Assembly: GCF_030915385.1 (NCBI RefSeq)
Contig: NZ_CP133268.1
Span: 4,004,001-4,068,000 of the forward strand
Source: Neobacillus sp. PS3-12
GTDB lineage: Bacteria; Bacillota; Bacilli; Bacillales; Cytobacillaceae
Direction: 5' to 3'
Length of the DNA stretch: 64,000 nt
Shown here one piece after another: positions 4,388 through 9,287 of this stretch. Under the pieces are notes generated by a model. It was not told the origin of the DNA. It did not search any database and worked only from the letters and a program-made list of their open reading frames with translations. The stretch's first letter is position 1. Each line of letters opens with the position of its first letter. The position numbers were made by a program, and so were the translations under genes.

Positions 4388-4411
4388 AAAAACAATCTGG
4401 CAATTGTTTTT
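4388..4411 (+). terminator. Terminator/attenuator between hyaD and hypA
   Basis: Inverted repeat AAAAACAAT / ATTGTTTTT with a 6-nt loop, then more T. Four bases after the protease stop codon. It could end or attenuate the structural-gene transcript before hypA. Confidence 0.7.
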
Positions 4412-4493
4412 TTATTGTCACAACACTATAACGAACTGGGAAATGTTTTAAATTATAATGGTTTTTGAAGGAACAAAAAGCCAGGTGATATTT

Positions 4494-4868
4494 ATGCATG
4501 AAATGTCCTTAATGGGAGATATCCTCCAGCTTGTCCAAGAGGATGCTGCCCAACACGGAATAGATAAAATTAAAAAAGTTGAACTCATTGTCGGTGAGAT
4601 CTCTAACGCATTGCCTGATGCCCTCCAAATGGCATTTGCCATTTTTCGTGAGCAAAATTTGCATTTTTTTTCGGATGATGCACAATTAATCATTCATATC
4701 GAACAGGCAAAAGCGGAATGTGTGATTTGCGGGACAGAATACCACCCTACACAAAAAATTGCTTTATGCCCGAATTGCCAAATTCCTTCAGGAAGGATTT
4801 TGGCAGGGGAAACATTTCAGGTTTTATCCTATGAAGGGAGTAATCAACCGTCAACAACTCATGACTGA
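4494..4868 (+). CDS. hypA: Hydrogenase nickel-insertion protein HypA
   Basis: Zinc-containing nickel chaperone that works with HypB to load Ni into the hydrogenase large subunit. It starts MHEMSLMGDIL, where His2 is the family's Ni ligand, and has the zinc pairs CVIC and CPNC. Start chosen at ATG 4494 because HypA proteins begin MHE; the frame is open 36 nt further up. About 124 residues. The last codons (PSTTHD) and stop lie inside the right end of the TnpB element at 4847-6312. The likely original end was a TGA overlapping the hypB ATG, so the tail is altered but the functional domains are intact. Confidence 0.93.
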   Translation: MHEMSLMGDILQLVQEDAAQHGIDKIKKVELIVGEISNALPDALQMAFAIFREQNLHFFSDDAQLIIHIEQAKAECVICGTEYHPTQKIALCPNCQIPSGRILAGETFQVLSYEGSNQPSTTHD

Positions 4869-5040
4869 AGTCACGAGCTTGTCTCTGCCTACTTCGTAGG
4901 CAGTGCTTGCGCTTCACACCAGCCTTTTAGACTTATTCCGAACCAGTAGTACAAACGCACTTATTGGTGCTCCTACCTTAGTATGTTGGAATATAAGGAC
5001 GGTTGACTTCGCCCCTACCACAAGAGTCATACTCCTATGG
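4847..5040 (-). ncRNA. Putative omega RNA (reRNA) at the element right end
   Basis: TnpB nucleases use a guide RNA transcribed from the right end of their element, running past the tnpB stop into flanking DNA. This stretch follows tnpB on the minus strand and contains a perfect CTGCCTAC/GTAGGCAG hairpin (near 4887-4905) and the end hairpin at 4858-4878. The guide would be the first bases beyond the element, in the 3' end of hypA. Location follows from family knowledge plus hairpins; the exact ends are not known. Confidence 0.6.
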
Positions 5041-6148
5041 TAACTGTACCGATGTACTCAATTCCTTTGCGGTACAGATTCATTGCACCAATTCGGTCAT
5101 CATTAGACCGATAGTGACAGTTCTGACATTCAAAGGTGTGCATCTTTTTGTTTCGGTTCACTTTTTCAATGTGTCCACACTTTGGACAGGTTTGAGAGGT
5201 GTATTTAGGGTCTACTATAATCACGCGCTGTCCATTTAGTCGAGCTTTATATTCTAATATCTGGCGAAATTGGTAAAAGGCCCAAGAAACGGAAATATAA
5301 CGATGGCGAACACGAATTCTTTCTGTTGCTGAACGGATACCGCTTAAATCTTCTAAAACAAACACTGTGCCTTTCGGGTACTTGTCAACGAGTGCCTTTG
5401 TGACTTGATGGTTTATATCTGTCACATAACGGTTTTCTCTTGAGCCTATTTGTTTTAGCTTTTTGCGGGAAGAAGATGTTTGTTTCATTTGAAGTTGTTT
5501 GCGAAGAGCTTTGTATTGACCTCGTTTATGTTTTACGGTACGTCCTTTGTAAAAGAAAGTTTCATGTTGACTGTCGTATGCCGTGGCGAGAAAGTTAATT
5601 CCCAAGTCCACACCAACAATATTATTTACATGTACAAACTCTAATGCGGGAAATTCTTTTGTCATTGGAATGTGCAAGAACCATTTTTTGTGTTTGTGAA
5701 CAAGTTTGGCTGTTCCGAATTTCCAAGTGCCATCAAAATATTGTTTCATTCCCTGTTTTTCAAAGCGAAGTTTTAATCTTCCATTTAGGGTATTAACGGA
5801 AAAACAATTATCTGTTAGTGAATAATCCCTATTCCAGACTAAATCATACTCTGGAAGTTTAAAGGTGATTAAACTCCATTCATGCCCATTAGACTTAGCA
5901 GACTTGTAGCGAGCGATAACAGTTTTCATTACAGACTGTGCCATTTGGGATTTTAGACCGAATTGTTCTCGCAAATTTCTATAATATAAGTCAATGAGTC
6001 TGCCTTGGTTTAAAATTTTGGTTTCATATACCCAAATTGATAGCCAATTACATGCTTGACGATAGGAGTGTGCTGTCACAATCAAGTTATCTTGCTCTGT
6101 ATCTGAAACGTAAATTTGGATTTTTGCAGTAATAGTAGACACATGCAT
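5027..6148 (-). CDS. tnpB: RNA-guided endonuclease TnpB (IS200/IS605 family)
   Basis: RuvC-type nuclease that cuts DNA matching its omega RNA guide next to a short motif, helping the element persist. 373 residues, full-length. RuvC motifs are VGVDLGINFLA (Asp), FVLEDLSG (Glu) and SNDDRIGAMNL (Asp), with a four-Cys zinc finger (CPKCGHIEK, then CQNC) between the last two. All catalytic acids are present, so it looks active. No tnpA partner lies in the element, so movement would need a transposase from elsewhere. It is transcribed against the hydrogenase operon. Confidence 0.95.
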   Translation of the reverse strand: MHVSTITAKIQIYVSDTEQDNLIVTAHSYRQACNWLSIWVYETKILNQGRLIDLYYRNLREQFGLKSQMAQSVMKTVIARYKSAKSNGHEWSLITFKLPEYDLVWNRDYSLTDNCFSVNTLNGRLKLRFEKQGMKQYFDGTWKFGTAKLVHKHKKWFLHIPMTKEFPALEFVHVNNIVGVDLGINFLATAYDSQHETFFYKGRTVKHKRGQYKALRKQLQMKQTSSSRKKLKQIGSRENRYVTDINHQVTKALVDKYPKGTVFVLEDLSGIRSATERIRVRHRYISVSWAFYQFRQILEYKARLNGQRVIIVDPKYTSQTCPKCGHIEKVNRNKKMHTFECQNCHYRSNDDRIGAMNLYRKGIEYIGTVTIGV

Positions 6149-6208
6149 TCACCTCTTTTCACTAATTATAGTTTATTACATTATTAGTAAAATTGGAAAT
6201 ATACAAAA

Positions 6209-6222
6209 AAGGAGGGAGCATG
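6209..6222 (+). promoter_or_regulatory. Element-borne ribosome binding site for hypB
   Basis: AAGGAGG, 4 nt before ATG 6220, lies inside the TnpB element and is in frame with hypB. It appears to replace the native hypB translation start lost at the insertion. Confidence 0.75.
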
Positions 6223-6972
6223 GAGATAACGGCTTTCGAGCTGCCAATGGCAGCCCTCATGCCGAGCGCATTTCCTCACACGACTGAAGTCGCGTGTCTC
6301 CATGCGCAGTTGATGAAAGTAACGTTAAGAACAGATGTATTAACAAACAATAATATAGCAGCAGATTTTAACAGGAAGCTTTTCGAGAGTACAAAAACCC
6401 TTGTGATTAACCTGATGAGCTCACCAGGCGCAGGAAAAACAACGCTGCTCGAAGAAACGGTCAAGGAATTGTCCGGGAAATATCGGATTGCCGTGATTGA
6501 AGGGGACCTGGCGACGGAAAGAGATGCTGACAGAATTCGGGCGATGGGGGCAAAAGCTGTTCAAATTAACACCCATGGAGGCTGTCACTTAGATGCGCGA
6601 ATGATCGCTGCTTGTTTGGGAGAATTTGACCTGGATGAAGTAGATTTGCTCTTCATCGAAAATGTAGGCAACCTAGTGTGTCCTTCTGGCTATGATTTAG
6701 GACAGCATCATAAAGTTGCTGTTCTGAGTGTACCGGAAGGGAATGATAAAATTCCAAAATATCCCCAAATGTTTATGCGCACGGAGTTGGTACTTTTAAA
6801 TAAAATTGATTTGCTCCCATACCTTGATTTTAGTGTGGAAGAGGCGCAAAAGGATCTATCGGAAATCAACCCGCAGTCTAAAGTTATACCGCTTTCCGCT
6901 AGAACCTATGAGGGTCTCACGGAATGGTTTTCCTGGATCGAAGGGGCTTATCAACAATGTGTACAGCAGTAA
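6220..6972 (+). CDS. hypB: Hydrogenase nickel GTPase HypB with element-derived N-terminus
   Basis: GTPase that drives nickel release into the hydrogenase precursor with HypA. The Walker A motif is SSPGAGKTTL; IEGDLATERDADRI, INTHGGCHLD (metal-site Cys/His), ENVGNLVCP and LNKIDLLP follow. Family members of this type start MKVTLRTDVL, which corresponds to ATG 6313, the first base after the inferred element boundary. Upstream of it the frame stays open into the element to an ATG at 6220 with an excellent ribosome site, adding 31 residues that look non-homologous. I chose 6220 because no ribosome site is seen close to 6313. The 3' end overlaps hypF by 16 nt. Confidence 0.9.
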   Translation: MEITAFELPMAALMPSAFPHTTEVACLHAQLMKVTLRTDVLTNNNIAADFNRKLFESTKTLVINLMSSPGAGKTTLLEETVKELSGKYRIAVIEGDLATERDADRIRAMGAKAVQINTHGGCHLDARMIAACLGEFDLDEVDLLFIENVGNLVCPSGYDLGQHHKVAVLSVPEGNDKIPKYPQMFMRTELVLLNKIDLLPYLDFSVEEAQKDLSEINPQSKVIPLSARTYEGLTEWFSWIEGAYQQCVQQ

Positions 6973-9287
6973 ATATCGCTTTAAAAGGGCGGGTTCAGGG
7001 TGTTGGCTTTAGGCCGTTTGTTTTTCAATTGGCACAGGAATACCAATTAAATGGGACCGTCCAAAACAATATGGATGGGGTAAAGATCCACATTGAAGGC
7101 AAGTCAGAAAGATTGCAGGAGTTTATCCATGATTTGCGTGAAAAAGCACCAAGTCTTTCTAAAATTGTTGAGATTGTGGTCGAAGAAACTGAATTACGAA
7201 ACATGGAGCGATTTACGATCATTGAAAGTGAACGAACGGGAACATCAGAACTTGTCATTCCGATTGATTCGGCTGTTTGTGATGACTGCTTAAGGGAAAT
7301 GAACGATCCAACAAATTTTCGCTATCAGTATCCTTTTATCAATTGCACCCAATGCGGACCGCGTTACACGATTATTGAAGAGCTTCCATATGACAGGCCG
7401 TATACAACGATGAAAGAGTTTAAGATGTGCCCTGATTGTGAGAAGGAATATCATGATCCCGCCAATCGCCGTCATCATGCGCAGCCAATCGCCTGCCCGA
7501 AATGCGGGCCAAAAGTGAGGCTGTTAAATGCTAATGGACAGGAAATGGCCGCAGAAAATCCAATTCAGGAGACGATTGCTCTTTTAAAAGCAGGCAAAGT
7601 TATCGCAGTCAAAGGGATTGGCGGCTACCATCTTTGCTGTGATGCTGGAAATGATCAAGCAGTTGCTAATTTAAGAGCAAGAAAAAACCGCCCGAATCGG
7701 CCGCTCGCCATTATGGCTGCTGACATTTCTAAGGTTGAAGAAATAGCGGAAGTATCGGAAACGGAACGGGATTTGTTAAAAAGTCCGGAAGCGCCAATCA
7801 TGATTCTTCGAAAAAATGAATTTTATCATCTTTCAAAAGAAGTAGCGCCAGGTATGGAATCCATCGGTATCATGCTTCCATATTCACCGCTTCACCATCT
7901 TCTGCTGGCGGATCATGACCTGCCATTTCTCGTCATGACTAGTGCAAATCCATCGGGGCTGCCGATGCTGTTTCAGGATCGAGATGCTCTGCCCTATCTT
8001 AATGGGATCGCAGATTATTATTTAATTCATAATCGGGAGATTCTTCATCCGGTAGATGATTCAGTCATCCAAGTCACTGACGGGAAAATTGATTTTTTGA
8101 GACGTGCAAGGGGATTCGTACCTGATCCGTTTGTAACAAATCAAGATGTTTCAGGAATTGTTGCCTTTGGAGGGCAGCAGAAAACCACCTTTACAATAGG
8201 AAGGAATAAGCAAATTTTTGTTGGCCCTCATATTGGTGATCTGGGAAATATCGAGACAATCAACCATTATAAAAATGAATTGGAGCATCTATTAAAATGG
8301 ATTCAAACTCCTAAGTCCATTGCTGTGACAGATGCTCATCCTGGTTATTATACTCATAATCTTGTAAACGAATATGAATTTGAAAAAGTGATAGAGGTTC
8401 AACACCATCATGCCCATATGGCTGCATGCCTGGACGAGCATGGTGTCAAAAGCAAGGCCTATGGGATTATCCTGGATGGAACCGGTTTTGGACTCGATGG
8501 GAATATTTGGGGATTTGAAATCTTCTATGGGGATACCGAGAATTTTCAGCGGATAGGTCATTTACGATATACACCTCTACCAGGAAATGAAAAGTGCATT
8601 CAGGAACCATGGAGAAATGCGGCAGCAATGCTAATGTCACTACTTGGTGATGAAGGACGTGATTCAGCTAAACGAATTTTCGAAGACAAAGTCATGGGAA
8701 TTGATGTTTTAAAAAGAATGATAGAAAACAATGTGAATACCGTGCAGGCAGGAACTTGCGGAAGATTGTTTGATGCGGTTAGCGCAATCTGCGGAATTAC
8801 CAGGATTTCCAGCTATGATGGTGAAGCGGCAATCAAGCTGGCTGAGCTTGCTGATGAAAAAAAATCCTTTGAGCCATATCCTTATAGGCTTTTCGATGAC
8901 GGTGGATTGTTAGCATTTGATTTTTCCAAAATGCTCAAAGTAATTGCGTTGGATGTACTTTCCGGAGTAGAAGCTGCTTATATCAGCAGCAGGTTTCATG
9001 AGACGGTTGTTCAAGCTCTTGTTGATGGTATGTCGCAATTATTGAAGAAAGAACCGGAAACTGTAAAAACCGTTGTTTTATCAGGAGGAAGTATGCATAA
9101 CCGTTTTTTTCGAACTAGACTAGGACAAGGATTATCAGAACTTGGCTTTAAAGTGCTTTTGCCAGAAAGAGTTCCCTGTAATGATGGCGGTTTATCGTAC
9201 GGCCAGCTGGTTGTTGCGGCAGCAAAAAGGAGGAATAGTAATGTGTGTGGGAGTACCGGCAAAAGTAGTGGAAAAAATGGAATATAG
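6957..9287 (+). CDS. hypF: Carbamoyltransferase HypF
   Basis: Converts carbamoyl phosphate to a thiocarbamate on HypE, the source of the CN ligands of the NiFe site. About 776 residues, normal for the family. Domains in order: acylphosphatase-like (GRVQGVGFRPFV), a double zinc-finger region (CDDC...CTQCGP and CPDC...CPKCGP), YrdC-like domain, and a Kae1-like C-terminal half with the HHHAHMAAC metal motif. Start ATG 6957 overlaps hypB by 16 nt and has GAAGGGG upstream; the open frame begins earlier at 6924. The end overlaps hypC by 47 nt. The tight overlaps indicate translational coupling through hypBFCDE. Confidence 0.95.
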   Translation: MCTAVNIALKGRVQGVGFRPFVFQLAQEYQLNGTVQNNMDGVKIHIEGKSERLQEFIHDLREKAPSLSKIVEIVVEETELRNMERFTIIESERTGTSELVIPIDSAVCDDCLREMNDPTNFRYQYPFINCTQCGPRYTIIEELPYDRPYTTMKEFKMCPDCEKEYHDPANRRHHAQPIACPKCGPKVRLLNANGQEMAAENPIQETIALLKAGKVIAVKGIGGYHLCCDAGNDQAVANLRARKNRPNRPLAIMAADISKVEEIAEVSETERDLLKSPEAPIMILRKNEFYHLSKEVAPGMESIGIMLPYSPLHHLLLADHDLPFLVMTSANPSGLPMLFQDRDALPYLNGIADYYLIHNREILHPVDDSVIQVTDGKIDFLRRARGFVPDPFVTNQDVSGIVAFGGQQKTTFTIGRNKQIFVGPHIGDLGNIETINHYKNELEHLLKWIQTPKSIAVTDAHPGYYTHNLVNEYEFEKVIEVQHHHAHMAACLDEHGVKSKAYGIILDGTGFGLDGNIWGFEIFYGDTENFQRIGHLRYTPLPGNEKCIQEPWRNAAAMLMSLLGDEGRDSAKRIFEDKVMGIDVLKRMIENNVNTVQAGTCGRLFDAVSAICGITRISSYDGEAAIKLAELADEKKSFEPYPYRLFDDGGLLAFDFSKMLKVIALDVLSGVEAAYISSRFHETVVQALVDGMSQLLKKEPETVKTVVLSGGSMHNRFFRTRLGQGLSELGFKVLLPERVPCNDGGLSYGQLVVAAAKRRNSNVCGSTGKSSGKNGI

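Follow-up and report, generated by a model that had tools for sequence, protein, structure and literature searches.

Among the described systems closest to the locus reported here is ISDra2 with its TnpB, for which Karvelis et al. 2021 (PMC8612924) describe a transposon-associated motif (TAM), a right-end element RNA (reRNA) and a right-end guide. Here we examine a stretch of 64,000 nucleotides from Neobacillus sp. PS3-12 (the whole of which is hereafter called the window), in which a TnpB-only element lies between the ribosome-binding site (RBS) and the start codon of the hydrogenase maturation gene hypB. We take IS1341 (TnpB-only IS200/IS605) to be the name of the group to which this element belongs. 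Its anatomy, ends, target and reading frame, the layout of the empty site and the recurrence of start-site insertions in its family can be observed directly, and the reading that we favour, and consider probable, is that the element landed on the hypB start codon and itself supplies the in-frame start now used for HypB.

The element, its target and the substitute start

We reason that the element, which a TnpA acting in trans presumably mobilised, inserted 3' of a TTCAT motif opposite the hypB start ATGAA, and would thereby have placed 1463 bp between the hypB RBS and its ATG, with loss of the hypA-hypB stop-start overlap. The outward AAGGAGG and ATG of the left end, the end that faces hypB, would belong to the architecture of the element itself; the frame in this copy happens to match, the HypB now produced most likely begins with 31 additional residues, and the downstream hypF would stay coupled.

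The left end indeed holds, as an earlier note on this DNA had claimed, AAGGAGG plus an ATG that is open and in frame, adding exactly 31 codons to hypB. The 93 nt from the new ATG (6220) to the native one (6313) are stop-free, the match of the substitute RBS is strong (duplex energy -12.7), and the new N-terminus reads MEITAFEL where the native one reads MKVTLRTD. The same note held that translation of hypB had been broken and re-created, which is right as to the loss of the native RBS and the offer of a substitute RBS and ATG, use of the new ATG being a prediction. A fit of the element to hypB is not supported, as the outward RBS and ATG are typical of its subgroup. The nearest left-end relatives, 12 left ends of the same subgroup in Paenibacillus sp. 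P96 (G002; L014 is among the loci, and some of the copies are partial matches), carry the same outward RBS and ATG, usually in another frame: in 7/12 a 31-codon open reading frame (ORF) terminates at the TGA contained in the target ATGAA (end +4), in three others the frame closes 23-24 nt short of the target, one lacks a start of this kind, and one was outside the analysis. Since these elements lie elsewhere, the feature is older than the landing at hypB. Compared with the P96 copies, the window copy has one extra base at the left-end tip, by which the stop-start overlap becomes an in-frame fusion. An in-frame start with an RBS was found in 5/66 elements examined and in 1/17 start-site insertions; given these counts we do not claim the hypB fusion as selected, and taken alone the match of frame is compatible with chance.

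The earlier note had rightly put a TnpB element between the hypB RBS and ATG, at 4847-6313; its true extent is 4850-6312. In an alignment of the window element with 10 relatives, conservation of the right end ceases after GTTGAC (GTTGAT in L013), beyond which the sequences diverge, and this sets the boundary at 4850 rather than 4847; among 21 right ends compared by eye, 20 close in TTGAC and one in TTGAT. The encoded TnpB keeps the catalytic residues D181, E266 and D350/351 (GVDLGI 179, VLEDLSG 264, NDDRIGAMN 349) and the Zn-ribbon cysteines 321/324/341/344, has, judged by its sequence, the RuvC core and Zn ribbon of the family, and scores above the cut-offs of the wide NCBIfam models NF040570 and TIGR01766 (IS200/IS605 TnpB-related). 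Folded as DNA, the left end contains a subterminal hairpin (z=-3.5 in the window, -2.9 in L014). The only ORF of at least 80 aa wholly within 4850-6312 is tnpB, there being no tnpA inside the element, and the Y1 transposase is represented in the genome by two fragments and no intact gene, so that the element is presumably stranded now.

A search of the 5.6 Mb genome returned no second full copy; the other matches comprised a TnpB relative (29% identity, with an internal stop) at C1:149840. Separately, a 34-bp stretch at C1:3167186 (L006, C1:3164000-3170000) is 88% like the right end of the element (GTCAACAAC...) and looks like the remnant of a related element; the genome TnpB search gave no match there. 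Eight plasmid records had matches (60-80% identity), each to less than 80% of the element, and the viral contigs yielded one pattern match and no relative of the element.

The target was derived from the best 80 of 88 relatives, which together with the window element make 81. Junctions were assigned in 58 of them through an NTCAT preceding the left-end motif (L013 by hand), and 23/81 were dropped because they were shortened, showed no motif by pattern or were not entered; at least L026, L046, L049, L055, L064 and L066 among the dropped ones also have TTCAT at the left end (by eye). The assigned junctions read TTCAT in 56/58 cases (window included) and GTCAT in 2/58, the first base being the sole free test in a pattern that fixes the other four. 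As a freer check we used BLAST with a P96 left end and no motif required, and all 12 P96 left ends adjoin ATGAA. The insertions thus lie 3' of a fixed TTCAT, without target duplication, and the native ATGAA (6313-6317) does double as TTCAT on the other strand, as proposed earlier. With its target so oriented, the left end necessarily faces the ATG. Related left ends are rare by BLAST, with matches in 12/397 genomes of the order (its own included) and in 10/394 genomes of the P96 family, in both cases mostly as short matches and in surveys that scored just 2 candidates per genome.

Removal of the element leaves AGTAATCAACC|ATGAAAG as the reconstructed empty site. The site proposed earlier is correct in the ATGAAAG that follows and incorrect in its upstream part, given as AGTAATCA; with the right end at 4850 the reconstruction becomes three bases longer. 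In the corrected version the distance from AGT to ATG is 11 nt, equal to that in the second hypAB pair of the genome (AGTAACGAACA|ATG) and in the ortholog L130 (AGTAATCGGCA|ATG), and the hypA TGA again overlaps the hypB ATG (HypA ...SNQP*); the second pair (L005) has the overlap likewise, and so does L130, at identical spacing. We predict that the junction in an element-free strain reads AGTAATCAACCATGAAAG.

A HypB search of 193 genomes of the family gave matches in 112, from which the 29 best-matching loci outside this genome were kept and joined by the paralogue (30 in total). A script read 28/30 of these element-free loci (L152 and L153 were left unread, and L154 was read at the wrong place): 26/28 start with ATGAA and L150 with GTGAA, an RBS stands just upstream in 27/28 (duplex energy at most -6), and the hypA stop overlaps the ATG in 16/28 by a strict pattern. 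The paralogue and the relatives have an AAGGGAG-type RBS, at 8-9 nt, and ATGAA. The coordinates of all features are collected in Table 1.

Table 1. Positions within the window of the element, its parts and the adjoining genes
Feature	Positions	Strand	Remarks
Whole TnpB-only element (IS200/IS605-like), 1463 bp	4850..6312	-	Right end at 4850, left end at 6312
tnpB, 373 aa, RNA-guided endonuclease TnpB	5027..6148	-	Pfam PF07282/PF01385, NCBIfam NF040570, PDB relatives
Right end, presumed reRNA scaffold, closing GAGTTGTTGAC	4850..5026	-	Conserved with 10 relatives to that point
Presumed guide GGTTGATTACTCCCTTCATA	4830..4849	-	Flank directly past the right end; antisense of the hypA end and the old hypB RBS
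Left end, subterminal hairpins and tnpB promoter region	6149..6312	-	DNA fold, family alignment
Target motif TTCAT, complement of the native hypB start ATGAA	6313..6317	-	
Native hypB RBS AAGGGAG	4834..4840	+	1463-bp element now between RBS and ATG
Substitute RBS AAGGAGG in the left end	6209..6215	+	
Substitute ATG and 31 extra codons (MEITAFELPMAALMPSAFPHTTEVACLHAQL)	6220..6312	+	
hypA	4494..4868	+	ORF now extends 5 residues into the TnpB element (SNQPSTTHD*)
hypB, presently predicted form	6220..6972	+	250 aa
hypB, native form	6313-6972	+	219 aa; TIGR00073 match on the native part
hypF	6957..9287	+	Starts within the hypB 3' end; sole full-length hypF of the genome

The surrounding hydrogenase operon comprises the small and large subunit genes, a maturation protease and hypA, followed by hypB and hypF; further hyp genes of the same operon were recognised by eye. 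The ORFs of hypB, hypF and tnpB are all intact in the window. At 1192-2078 the gene for the hydrogenase small subunit is frameshifted at a six-G run (1589-1594), which may be a true loss or a sequencing error. A second hydrogenase operon with hypA and hypB lies in locus L005 (C1:4757000-4770000), where hypD, hypE and a cytochrome b-like gene were seen by eye; its hypF match is to the first 63 residues only, in an open frame of 80. Between the presumed guide and the hypA-hypB junction of this second operon there are mismatches at positions 1, 5, 6 and 18, which makes it a TTCAT with a near-match and not an exact target.

Predicted use and possible origin of the outward start

We infer both the use of the new start and a transcript across the left end, the latter started either upstream in the operon or at a promoter-like sequence within tnpB. 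Initiation energies were approximated by a crude custom estimate at three sizes of folded RNA. They amount to -5.0, -3.7 and +3.5 kcal/mol for the new ATG, against 11.0, 13.9 and 10.3 kcal/mol for the stranded native ATG (a gain of 6.8 to 17.6 kcal/mol) and 1.4, 0.9 and 1.4 kcal/mol for the native ATG in the reconstructed empty site, which the new one beats in the local folds. The promoter-like sequence lies on the + strand within tnpB (5192-5221, 11/12 match) and is directed at hypB; it is weak evidence, as 8 such sites were found in the region and 5.2 expected, and together with the largely paired native site it helps the reading of a working substitute start slightly.

Several points weigh against that reading. 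In the widest fold the new ATG (+3.5) is somewhat worse than the old ATG of the empty site (+1.4); by base-pair probabilities the 301-nt read-through RNA pairs both the new RBS and the new ATG, and the 136-nt fold pairs the ATG only; a message from the operon promoter would have a ~1.3 kb untranslated leader antisense to tnpB. To a slight degree the single free base of the target pattern also counts here, as does the miss of the narrow model NF038281 (IS200 TnpB; 77 bits vs a cut-off of 425); the narrow IS607 TnpB model was missed too (66 of 350 bits), both being exception-type models with very high cut-offs. In the 301-nt fold the native RBS and ATG of the empty site are largely paired as well (the paralogue's are not), hence this fold fails to separate the cases.

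Why the outward signals exist is a further question, to which we see one answer with about even chances of being right and compatible with their use by hypB. It holds that the outward RBS is the opposite strand of a CCTCCTTT patch, which pairs with the tnpB RBS in transcripts from outside, so that only transcripts from the tnpB promoter are translated; the RBS would not serve translation, the ATG would be part of the stem GCATGGAG/CTCCATGC, and the use by hypB would be a side effect. Other insertion sequences do hide their own RBS in read-through transcripts. In the RNA fold of 6150-6226 the new RBS pairs with the antisense of the tnpB RBS, and the DNA fold places the new ATG in the left-end stem. 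The tnpB RBS is on average less often unpaired in read-through (0.20) than in native RNA (0.43), and than in read-through with shuffled upstream sequence (0.30; Wilcoxon p=3.6e-4, from 35/39 representatives that are related and not independent, the other 4 having no site by pattern). Twenty aligned left ends conserve a CTCCTTT patch followed by an inverted repeat, ACTTTCACTAA...TTAGTGAAAGG, around the tnpB -10 box, and patch and repeat together look like an operator or a read-through hairpin.

The encoded peptide adds to this picture, for it is not conserved: relative to five P96 copies the 31-codon ORF shows 7-9 non-synonymous vs 2-4 synonymous changes, and we therefore reject selection on the peptide. 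An early stop cuts the ORF short in L011, L155 and the P96 copies L023, L101 and L108, and L157 has no start with an RBS. Against a by-product origin, single representatives reach a shuffle p<=0.1 in only 7/35 cases (combined p=0.02), and the window element itself gives p=0.48. The outward RBS match, moreover, beats shuffles (p<=0.1) in 18/39 left ends and the other strand does so in 14/39, nearly as often, which leaves the direction undecided.

A rather unlikely alternative to the use of the new start is that the insertion silenced hypB, the RBS and ATG of the left end being buried or poorly transcribed, HypB coming from the second operon and the present operon decaying. The pairing predicted for the new site (in full in the 301-nt fold, for the ATG only in the 136-nt fold), the second intact hypAB elsewhere in the genome and the frameshifted small subunit upstream would all fit this alternative. 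However, the native site of the reconstructed empty site is predicted to be largely paired too, the local energies favour the new start, the frameshift is possibly a sequencing error, the hypB frame and hypF are still open, and the genome holds no full second copy of hypF. Judged from the gene overlap, hypF translation is probably coupled to that of hypB; if so, sustained hypB translation would matter for the maturation of any hydrogenase in the cell. The word 'essential', which the earlier note applied to hypB, is unsupported in view of the second intact hypB at C1:4761433, although the sole full hypF lies directly downstream of the copy in the window.

Some element-free loci do have an open frame upstream of hypB (the longest in a correctly read locus has 52 codons), which we take to be hypA sequence in another frame and which, in the translations compared, does not resemble the extension. 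That the extension of HypB predates the element has practically no chance of being true, as it is absent from 27/27 correctly read element-free loci (26 relatives and the paralogue), which refutes it within the sampled family and assigns the 31 residues to the element, and as its entire length falls within sequence that is homologous to left ends found at unrelated sites. The earlier note had named such a pre-existing extension in element-free relatives as its own refutation, and the check did not refute it.

Insertions at gene starts among related elements

As TTCAT is a start codon read backwards, related elements often land on start codons. An RBS-based test was run on 52 elements with both ends assigned, with 897 ATGAA sites in the flanks as control. 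In 15/52 elements and 70/897 controls the ATGAA goes with an RBS in the empty site and an ORF of 100 codons or more (p=1.7e-5); the start-site enrichment was weaker under a looser RBS threshold (p=0.0013), and no enrichment was obtained with ORF length alone (17/58 vs 207/897, p=0.18).

By a simple ORF caller on the rejoined flanks, 51 elements were classified (7/58 were excluded, six because no right end had been assigned and one for its short flank) as 13 start, 25 intergenic and 13 interior insertions, and 866 control ATGAA sites as 45 start, 154 intergenic and 667 interior; without the window element, which prompted the test, 12/50 are start-site insertions. For start vs interior sites the odds ratio is 14.8 (p=5e-9), and for start vs intergenic sites it is 1.8 (p=0.10). 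Gene interiors are thus depleted, and no depletion is seen at start sites when they are compared with intergenic sites. The target motif and the avoidance of gene interiors suffice to account for the start-site habit; the oddity is that splitting an RBS from its gene is tolerated as well as intergenic insertion.

At the level of single loci, L056 and L075 are among the 15 yet interior by classification, L056 lying inside a GntP permease (Pfam); Pfam gave no match for L075 or L067. Long ORFs begin at L078 and L024, where the upstream RBS is lacking. True gene starts are indicated by Pfam matches to a response regulator from residue 3 (L013), Amj from residue 10 (L047) and DUF350 from residue 9 (L011), as well as, in another genome and next to a P96-like left end, to a GntR regulator from residue 14 (L155).

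We hand-picked 17 start-site insertions, among them L024 and L078 without a native RBS and L107 and L155 with one flank only. The 17 include one in-frame fusion (hypB) and three cases of a long stop-start overlap (L014, L024, L107), and at L079 a 3-codon ORF with a weak RBS ends at the ATG. Rescue by the element thus looks like luck and not like a general explanation of why start sites are tolerated. We consider it quite improbable that the TTCAT elements are start-codon specialists, some of whose left ends hand translation over to the ATG by fusion or by a short outward ORF; were they so, a landing on a start codon would be nearly harmless, and start sites would go unavoided though gene interiors are avoided.

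The locus offers a concrete case, and its family a countable pattern, of a TnpB target motif that equals a start codon on the other strand. Start-site insertions of this kind form a natural test set for the survival of genes after the loss of a translation signal, and the same insertions test whether transposon ends are shaped to soften insertion. They also carry a warning for annotation, in that N-terminal extensions may be transposon ends.

Comparison with described systems

TldR proteins are defined by the loss of the RuvC nuclease residues. The window TnpB keeps these, which rules it out as a TldR, and its guide matches its own insertion site; what it shares with TldR (PMC13418256) is that a TnpB-related protein has a guide which matches a region of a host gene.

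Rfam gave no match at E<=1 in 4400-6500, a region that includes the right end, and with no group I intron there the element is ruled out as an IStron. The likeness to IStrons (PMC4227781) lies in an insertion sequence that softens its effect on a host gene, and the difference in the means: RNA splicing there, and here, if there is any softening, a new start codon.

Searches of a literature collection with few subscription papers, on TnpB and IS605 with TTCAT or start-codon terms, found nothing on start-site targeting in titles or passages; in PMC4438569 and PMC3118320, the TTCAT passages give primer sequence.

With ISDra2 the element shares a motif 5' of the insertion that serves as TAM and a right-end guide (both presumed here), but the TAM is TTGAT there and TTCAT here, and ISDra2 has a TnpA, of which the window element has none (PMC8612924). 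With the TnpB-only members of IS200/IS605 it has in common a TnpB with RuvC and Zn ribbon, a fixed pentanucleotide 5' of the insertion without target duplication, a subterminal hairpin, and a conserved right end followed by a variable guide; it differs from them in that the target is TTCAT and in that the left end gives the neighbouring gene a start codon.

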